A DNA stretch of 34,439 bases, taken from positions 1-34,439 of the forward strand of contig JAILFT010000108.1 in the NCBI GenBank assembly GCA_024697425.1, written 5' to 3'. This DNA is from Butyrivibrio sp. (GTDB lineage Bacteria; Bacillota; Clostridia; Lachnospirales; Lachnospiraceae). The notes under the pieces were generated by a model, which had not been told where the DNA came from, searched no databases, and saw only the letters and a program-made list of their open reading frames with translations. A program made the translations under genes and the position numbers. Shown in pieces: positions 11,981 through 29,375 of the stretch; positions within the stretch are counted from its first letter, which is position 1; every line of letters begins with the position of its first letter.

Positions 11981-12124
11981 GTGATATACGGATCGCTCCG
12001 CTTAGCGTTCGCAATCCTGCATACATTCGGATTCCACACTATCGTGCTCCATCCTCATGTATGTTCGGTCTTCAAGGTCACATTCAAGCATGCGTGTGAA
12101 TGTGACTTTGAATCCCTATATCAC
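11981..12124. repeat. Structured intergenic element E1 (multi-hairpin closed by a long-range stem)
   Basis: Outer arms GTGATATACGGAT (11981-11993) / ATCCCTATATCAC (12112-12124), 12/13. Inner hairpins CATACAT/ATGTATG (12020-12063) and TTCAAGGTCACATTCA/TGAATGTGACTTTGAA (12071-12112). Confidence 0.65.
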
Positions 12125-14662: not shown

Positions 14663-15409
14663 TTAAAAGTTAAGTTCTACCGTGCAGACGGATTTGCCCT
14701 CCGCATCGATAAGATCCACGATACGCATCTGCCCCTGAGCCTGCTGCCCGTCCTCGCCGGCAGCGACATCGTTGTAAACAAGGGGATACAGTACATCTCC
14801 GAGAACCGCCTGTTTCTTGTACTCGGCTCTCATACCTCTTACCTTGTCTTCAAGATCGGAACATGCGTCTATAGCCATTCTAACATATTGGCCGTTGTTA
14901 ACGTGATAATTGGTATCAAGATGGTGCTTTCTTACCACTATCTCATCGCCCTTTACAGGCTGTACACCCTCAGGCACAACTATCTTCCTTCCGGCGTAGT
15001 TCATCTCAAGCTTCTCGCCCATAGGGTAAGTCTCAAGCATCTCCGGAGTTACCCTGGCGGGAAGGCCCTTTTCGAAATTGAAGAGGGTCCACACAGAGTT
15101 GGCAACCGCAAGTCTCTCACCGTCTTTGGTATCCATAAAGAAATTTCTAAGGCCGAAGAAGCCCTTCAGTTCATAGGGGACAGTTCCGATGGTCACGTCC
15201 TCGCAAAGCCTTGGGTACCTCATTATCTCAATCTGCCAGGAGACCAATACCCAGGCGATGTTCCTCTTCTTCATGAAGTCAATATCCGCTACGCCCTCCT
15301 GGGTCTGGAAGGTGGAGCAGTCCTGGAAATAATCTATAAGGGACTCCAGGGTAAGCGTCCCGTCCTTATCAATCTCGCTGTATCTGATCCTGGAATCAAA
15401 GGTATACAT
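14663..15409 (-). CDS. Acyl-ACP thioesterase (hotdog fold)
   Basis: MYTFDSRIRYSEIDKDGTLTLESLIDYFQDCSTFQ, VLVSWQIEI, HHLDTNYHVNNGQYVRMA. True start taken at 15409 (AAAGGA RBS). The ORF-track extension to 15589 is translated repeat DNA. Confidence 0.88.
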   Translation of the reverse strand: MYTFDSRIRYSEIDKDGTLTLESLIDYFQDCSTFQTQEGVADIDFMKKRNIAWVLVSWQIEIMRYPRLCEDVTIGTVPYELKGFFGLRNFFMDTKDGERLAVANSVWTLFNFEKGLPARVTPEMLETYPMGEKLEMNYAGRKIVVPEGVQPVKGDEIVVRKHHLDTNYHVNNGQYVRMAIDACSDLEDKVRGMRAEYKKQAVLGDVLYPLVYNDVAAGEDGQQAQGQMRIVDLIDAEGKSVCTVELNF

Positions 15410-15420
15410 GTAGGTCCTTT

Positions 15421-15463
15421 CTGCATGCAAGCATGCACAGACATGTTTCTGCATGGCTCTGCC
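15421..15463. repeat. 43 bp direct repeat, copy 1 (partial duplicate of E2)
   Basis: ctgcatgcaagcatgcacagacatgtttctgcatggctctgcc, matching 15545-15587 with one substitution. Confidence 0.85.
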
Positions 15464-15469
15464 TGTCGC

Positions 15470-15596
15470 CCGCGTTATGGCAGACGCAAACTCGAAAGCT
15501 TCGCTTTCTCGTTCGCGTAGCTCGCCATATAGAAACATATCTGTCTGCATGCAAGCATGCACAGACACGTTTCTGCATGGCTCTGCCATAACGCGG
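15470..15596. repeat. Structured intergenic element E2 (three-way-junction-like)
   Basis: Perfect 15 bp outer stem CCGCGTTATGGCAGA (15470-15484) / TCTGCCATAACGCGG (15582-15596). Inner hairpins ACGC..GAAAGC-ttc-GCTTTC..GCGT and AGAAAC..TGTCTGCATGC-aa-GCATGC-ac-AGACA-c-GTTTCT. Confidence 0.75.
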
Positions 15597-15604
15597 AAAA
15601 AAAG

Positions 15605-15632
15605 AAGCGAGATTGGATATCCAATCTCGCTT
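15605..15632 (-). terminator. Terminator of tRNA-Gln
   Basis: Perfect 28 nt palindrome AAGCGAGATTGGATATCCAATCTCGCTT, followed by a T-rich tract on the minus strand. Confidence 0.8.
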
Positions 15633-15637
15633 AAAAG

Positions 15638-15710
15638 CTGGGCTAGTAGGATTCGAACCTACGTAATGACGGAGTCAGAGTCCGTTGCCTTACCGCTTGG
15701 CGATAGCCCA
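15638..15710 (-). tRNA. tRNA-Gln (anticodon CUG)
   Basis: Minus strand TGGGCTATCGCCAAGCGGTAAGGCAACGGACTCTGACTCCGTCATTACGTAGGTTCGAATCCTACTAGCCCAG folds as a cloverleaf. Anticodon loop CTCTGAC. Confidence 0.95.
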
Positions 15711-29244: not shown

Positions 29245-29375
29245 ATCGCGTAAAGCTGACACGCCCTCGCAAATGCCTGACATTTACGAGCACGTGTTAA
29301 ACGTCATATGATCACCGGCCGGCTTTTGTGCAAACACACGCCTGCCGGTGCCCCCATGACTTAGCTTCACGCGAT
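29245..29375. repeat. Structured intergenic element E3 (three-way-junction-like)
   Basis: Outer arms ATCGCGTAAAGCT (29245-29257) / AGCTTCACGCGAT (29363-29375), 12/13, with the mismatch G.U in minus-strand RNA. Inner hairpins ACACGCCCTCGCAAATG/CATTTACGAGCACGTGT and ACCGGCCGGC/GCCTGCCGGT. Confidence 0.65.

Follow-up and report, generated by a model that had tools for sequence, protein, structure and literature searches.

A dispersed three-way-junction RNA element between terminators and Shine-Dalgarno sequences in mRNA leaders of Butyrivibrio

The window we analysed is a stretch of 34,439 nucleotides of a Butyrivibrio sp. genome (contig JAILFT010000108.1), and the element under study, E2, lies there in the mRNA leader of an acyl-ACP thioesterase gene (Table 1). 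Read on the minus strand, which is the functional, sense strand of E2, a tRNA-Gln gene and its intrinsic terminator come first, followed by the element, a truncated second copy and the thioesterase coding sequence. The first-pass annotation, which was made from the letters alone, had stated that E2 fills the gap between the terminator and the thioesterase leader, and the coordinates bear this out. The end of the truncated copy overlaps the thioesterase Shine-Dalgarno sequence AAAGGA (15415-15420).

Table 1. Features at the E2 locus and related elements in the window (R1, covariance model for the E2-type; RF01699, Clostridiales-1 RNA of Rfam)
Feature	Coordinates	Strand	Evidence
E2 element, E2-type sister of RF01699, three-way junction in acyl-ACP thioesterase mRNA leader	15470..15596	-	fold z -9.3; R1 124.8 bits; RF01699 52.3 bits
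P1 5' arm (sense strand), including CGCG and GCAGA core	15582..15596	-	
P2 tall hairpin, variable covarying stem, CUUG tetraloop cap	15524..15581	-	
Conserved junction GAGCNA	15518..15523	-	alignment
P3 hairpin, tandem G-A (CGAG/CGAG), GC-GAA-GC cap	15485..15517	-	
P1 3' arm (sense strand)	15470..15484	-	
Truncated second copy (5' half of element)	15417..15463	-	47 nt, 96% identical
tRNA-Gln intrinsic terminator	15597..15632	-	stem 15605-15632; poly-T 15597-15603 directly adjoins E2
tRNA-Gln(CTG), upstream gene of read-through unit	15637..15710	-	
Acyl-ACP thioesterase gene, downstream of E2, ATG at 15409	14663..15409	-	Pfam PF01643/PF20791; start common to orthologues
Second E2-type element, between dnaJ stop codon and prmA Shine-Dalgarno	29245..29375	-	R1 80.7 bits; PrmA PF06325
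Canonical RF01699 element	11981..12124	-	80.1 bits; context; Pfam

The two arms that close E2, CCGCGTTATGGCAGA (15470-15484) and TCTGCCATAACGCGG (15582-15596), are 15 nt long and 100% complementary, with 97 nt between them, so that the perfect closing stem claimed at first is indeed there with all 15 of its pairs. The predicted fold is a three-way junction in which this stem encloses two hairpins, again as had been described. Its minimum free energy was -64.2 kcal/mol, compared with -33.0 +/- 3.4 for dinucleotide shuffles (z -9.3), and none of the 200 shuffles folded as well. We ruled out an intrinsic terminator, because the poly-T precedes E2 and belongs to the tRNA-Gln terminator. A tRNA was also rejected, and so was a known riboswitch, as the element gave no match to any such family and the aptamers sit upstream of the copies. 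The microRNA-type matches in Rfam were below cut-off and are palindrome noise.

Thus, of the statement that E2 belongs to no recognised class, the part concerning terminators, tRNAs and known riboswitches stands, but the rest has to be amended, since Rfam matches E2 on the minus strand to Clostridiales-1 RNA (RF01699) with a marginal 52.3 bits, the curated gathering cut-off being 48 bits. A match to a known Rfam family had been named beforehand as counting against the proposal; the one found is only marginal, no function is known for the family, and the majority of E2-type copies score below the cut-off (only a handful of those in the loci scanned pass it, at 49.4-58.2 bits). Furthermore, the alignment of RF01699 to E2 skips around 50 model positions, which are the middle hairpin. 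The four-way junction with this middle hairpin is absent from E2, and the E2-type consensus is a three-way junction composed, in order, of GCAGAGYCATG, a variable tall hairpin, TATATGRCGAGCNACRCGAACGAGRAA, a short hairpin and CGAGTTTGYGTCTGC. As judged from the alignments, E2 and its nearest relatives are a distinct and simpler two-hairpin sister subfamily of the three-hairpin RF01699, which we name E2-type.

Regarding its distribution, the covariance model R1, with matches taken at E <= 1e-8, found the E2-type in 48 of the 79 genomes of the genus, with 0 to 13 copies per genome, and the DNA search of E2's own genome that the first-pass annotation had proposed gave 5 matches including E2 itself. 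We analysed 58 distinct copies, all of them above 60 bits and from Butyrivibrio; the weakest R1 matches (around 46-60 bits), which may include canonical elements, were left out. RF01699 itself has 21 matches in the genome of E2 and from 1 to 32 in each of the 36 relatives of the genus searched (36/36). An exact 27-base core pattern occurs in 20 stretches in GTDB, all from Butyrivibrio or unnamed Lachnospiraceae MAGs, and outside the genus only weak matches were found, in three other genera of Lachnospiraceae. Two distant relatives in another genus of the family (L246 and L250, G149) start right after or near a -10-like TATAAT/TAAAAT, which resembles the 5' end of a transcript. In the literature searched we found nothing on the function of RF01699 and nothing on repeats in Butyrivibrio.

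Two further elements lie in the window. The second E2-type element, ahead of prmA, has a P3 without the tandem G-A, and G074 has a homologue in the corresponding position (L156). The canonical RF01699 element is located 4 nt past the stop codon of a gene for a PucR-type regulator and just ahead of the Shine-Dalgarno sequence of a gene for an FtsE-like ABC ATPase; another genome (G026, L030) also has a canonical element before this same ATPase gene.

A structured RNA or DNA element had been suggested at first, and the structured-RNA reading is supported because the copies exist and the covariation is overwhelming. In a 14-sequence alignment that was not fitted to the model, 28 of the 48 pairs had compensatory double changes. 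Among 63 distinct copies, 93.8% of the pair cells were standard-paired and 692 cells were double changes, versus 196 +/- 12 after shuffling and at most 125 with the partners slid; this second alignment was fitted to the model and leans towards the structure, although the un-fitted one agrees with it. Compensatory changes were also found between species at one and the same site, namely 22 pairs at purO, 17 at metK, 13 at trpD, 11 at tpiA and 9 at the thioesterase gene. As for the motifs, the P2 cap is CUUG or CUCG in 44 of the 63 copies, and the tandem G-A mismatch of P3 has its GA on the 5' strand in 55/61.

We assigned the strand from the G-U pairs of P3, the tandem G-A and the gene orientation. 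In P3, columns 117-158 and 124-149 contain 62 G-U cells; were the other strand the functional one, these would read as C-A mismatches. A G-U plus C-A step in P2 was dropped as strand evidence, because it reads alike on both strands. Comparison of the copies lends strong support to the E2-type fold as a structure-conserved RNA.

In three copies (L078, L127 and L154) the tandem G-A of P3 is swapped for perfectly paired sequence, an apparent palindrome-templated correction, and G027 (L072) retains the G-A form at the locus of L078. These P3 stems 'corrected' to a perfect palindrome suggest that template-switch correction occurs at E2-type sequences; the mismatched form prevails despite it, which argues for selection on RNA shape. 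The element in the ileS leader of G074 (L165) is reduced to P1 and P2 and is palindromic enough to match the model on both strands.

The position of the copies within transcripts follows a rule. The poly-T of a terminator ends at the first base of the element, or a few bases off, in 44 of the 58 E2-type copies, and a recognisable hairpin stands ahead of the abutting poly-T in 35 of them. Random positions in the same loci gave 3.2% for the poly-T and 0.8% for the poly-T with hairpin, and only 1 of 48 canonical RF01699 copies adjoins a poly-T. Downstream, a co-directional Shine-Dalgarno sequence with a start codon follows in 43/58 copies, at a median of 23 nt from the element end. Only one of the 58 is inverted (L139), in the purO leader of G009, between the terminator of the ZTP riboswitch and the purO Shine-Dalgarno sequence. 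These counts should be read knowing that many copies share a locus by descent, so that there are around 15 different downstream genes. They include trpD, trpE, purO, metK, ileS, pheS, tpiA, prmA, rplJ and an ECF-type transporter gene (names read from N-terminal sequences, except for the window genes, which were tested against Pfam). Upstream of the copies Rfam finds the ZTP riboswitch (purO), SAM (metK), TPP (the transporter gene), T-boxes (several genes) and tRNA-Gln (thioesterase), and T-box motifs stand ahead of the pheS copies. At tpiA and prmA there is no terminator and the element adjoins the upstream stop codon. Some other copies stand behind the ordinary terminator at the end of a gene, with no other gene nearby.

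The canonical RF01699 copies abut a stop codon in 36 of 48 cases, some of these stops being supplied by the element itself, and have a downstream gene in sense in 31/48 and in antisense in 2/48. Two of them (L020, L032) lie directly past the stop of an apparent rplL, and two others (L024, L044) past the stop of another gene with terminator-like sequence further downstream; all four may be 3'-UTR placements. The location between a terminator poly-T and the next Shine-Dalgarno sequence is undescribed for RF01699 in the literature searched. Neither did we find there the E2-type subfamily or its placement rule, although repeated structured RNAs of the Clostridiales-1 type were already known.

At orthologous sites the elements come and go. 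In most relatives the tRNA-Gln poly-T is separated from the thioesterase Shine-Dalgarno sequence by only around 25 nt or by a short piece of unrelated sequence, whereas the element is there in G000, G074 (in tandem), G003 and G063, with apparent remnants in G004 and G031. The metK slot is empty, full, in tandem or occupied by deletion derivatives that retain the closing stem, and in the genome of E2 it holds a decayed copy (L217). At the thiolase-crotonase junction the canonical copies are full, cut down to one hairpin or absent. Since many Butyrivibrio have no element at a given leader, it is dispensable there. A different palindromic repeat occupies the same slot after the poly-T in other species, in metK leaders (L209, L211) and thioesterase leaders (L088, L106), with a hairpin such as TTTTTTCATGG...CCATGAAAAA followed by CGCTCCGCGAGGATGCGCA...

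There are thus multiple dispersed copies that are present or absent at orthologous sites, as in MITE and REP elements, and the suggestion of a mobile palindromic repeat is partly supported because of this dispersal and this gain and loss. Of its other hallmarks, we saw no target duplication, no terminal repeats of fixed sequence and, for the Y1 family examined, no enzyme that would mobilise it. The flanks of the empty sites were too diverged to read a target-site duplication. A Y1/RAYT transposase (PF01797) was considered as the mobiliser and rejected; it is present in 6 of the 6 genomes tested, but the copy number does not track it and no element match lies near it at the eight loci examined.

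We give an even chance to the reading of E2 as one copy of a cis-acting RNA cassette that is dispersed over leaders and intercistronic regions of Butyrivibrio and probably acts as a barrier governing the stability or processing of read-through mRNAs. As to the mechanism, we infer that the element is transcribed with the downstream gene, with the minus strand as sense. It sits where a transcript that has read through a riboswitch, T-box or tRNA terminator, or past a stop codon, comes near the next Shine-Dalgarno sequence. Only read-through or polycistronic mRNAs would carry it, because at empty sites the poly-T and the Shine-Dalgarno sequence lie too close together for a promoter to fit in. Processing of the leader or of the tRNA by RNase Y, RNase J or tRNA-processing enzymes may then expose the element, whose stable stem would form a 5' barrier that protects the end of the mature downstream mRNA, defines it, or does both; expression could thus be tuned after the attenuation decision. 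In B. subtilis, RNase Y cuts the leaders of riboswitches and T-boxes (PMC3542257), and RNase J1 is impeded where the 5' terminus forms a hairpin (as stated in PMC3386247). Against the cassette count the dispensable copies, the inverted purO copy, the copies at plain gene ends and a prediction that showed no simple insulation of the Shine-Dalgarno sequence, as well as the fact that palindrome-templated mutation can mimic covariation and that three P3 stems look so corrected.

The main rival, and a serious one, is a selfish REP/MITE-like element kept at safe sites, where insertion targets, or is tolerated only at, the junction past a terminator poly-T or a stop codon. Then it would have no function for the host mRNA and the sense orientation would come from the insertion mechanism. 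We consider this possible, though rather doubtful. The wide variation in copy number (0-13 for the E2-type, 1-32 for canonical elements in the genus) is what such an element would give, and so is the state of orthologous sites, where copies are gained, lost, doubled in tandem, reduced to deletion remnants and, in one case, inverted; the exact abutment on the poly-T resembles target choice, and some copies are at plain gene ends. Nevertheless, the terminal stems covary instead of being fixed repeats, the tandem G-A is kept in nearly all copies although template correction would erase mismatches, and compensatory change continues at fixed sites. Attenuator leaders also look over-represented among the terminators used, as judged from the loci of the copies themselves, and the Y1 transposase behaves as described above. 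The literature searched held nothing usable on terminator-targeted insertion or on stop-codon-proximal REP elements.

A bolder version of the cassette reading, which we regard as unlikely, is a new post-attenuator RNA class, a structured cassette dispersed to sites right behind riboswitch, T-box and tRNA terminators, which would decide how the read-through mRNA is processed and how stable it is, perhaps by letting the 5' CGYG form either of two mutually exclusive pairings. Still more improbable is a ligand- or protein-sensing switch in which this 5' CGYG would change partners between the internal CRCG and the 3' CRCG. The 5' CGYG/CAUG does match the internal CRCG/CAUG in nearly all copies (23 CGUG-CACG, 22 CGCG-CGCG and 3 CAUG-CAUG), including the short variants without the competing P3 strand. 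However, nearly all short variants have CGCG on both sides, therefore shared ancestry may explain the match; moreover, conservation past the short junction motifs does not look like a ligand pocket and the downstream genes have no common pathway. We see similarly little chance for a structural insulator that prevents base pairing between the attenuator leader and the Shine-Dalgarno sequence of the next gene. A self-contained closed structure between the two would suit that role, but the predicted accessibility of the Shine-Dalgarno sequence was alike with the element (0.48), with it deleted (0.50) and with it shuffled (0.46). Finally, a stand-alone small RNA gene, in line with the Rfam type of Clostridiales-1 ('Gene; sRNA') and with the 2010 description, which marks it as a candidate RNA that is not cis-regulatory and gives no function (PMC2864571), is hardly credible, as the thioesterase, metK and purO slots have no room for its own promoter and the copies are nearly always co-directional, tens of bases ahead of a start codon.

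Returning to the cassette, canonical copies at stop codons and E2-type copies at attenuator terminators are both in sense and usually just ahead of a ribosome-binding site, which makes the function directly testable. It also suggests that in attenuator-controlled genes of Butyrivibrio (metK, purO, trpD, ileS, pheS and others) the riboswitch decision has come to be followed by one more RNA layer.

A mechanistic likeness is seen in the thrS T-box leader of B. subtilis, where the processed read-through mRNA starts at a stable hairpin located between leader and coding sequence; this mRNA is cleaved, and stabilised by the 5' attenuator hairpin (as stated in PMC3386247). In thrS the terminator hairpin itself acts, whereas the E2-type is an extra, dispersed element past the terminator; the likeness is an analogy only. 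The REP/BIME, ERIC and Correia-type repeats, which have documented effects on mRNA stability (PMC2267715), are like the E2-type dispersed, intergenic, palindromic and located within mRNAs, although the comparison with Rfam found no sequence relation. Unlike them, the E2-type folds into a three-way junction with RNA-style covariation, keeps its loop and mismatch motifs conserved, is confined to a strict slot and is strongly oriented.

The closest relative by structure is Clostridiales-1 itself (RF01699; Weinberg et al. 2010, PMC2864571). Both have a variable, covarying closing stem, a tall P2 hairpin with a YGCUUGCR-type loop and a 3' hairpin with a G/A-rich internal loop and a GNA cap, and they occur in the same genomes, often just ahead of a Shine-Dalgarno sequence. 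The E2-type differs in having no middle hairpin, in its own conserved junction and P3 (GAGCNACRCGAACGAG...CGAGUUUGYG), in scores mostly below the RF01699 cut-off and in its position, since it adjoins the terminator poly-T whereas the canonical copies adjoin stop codons.
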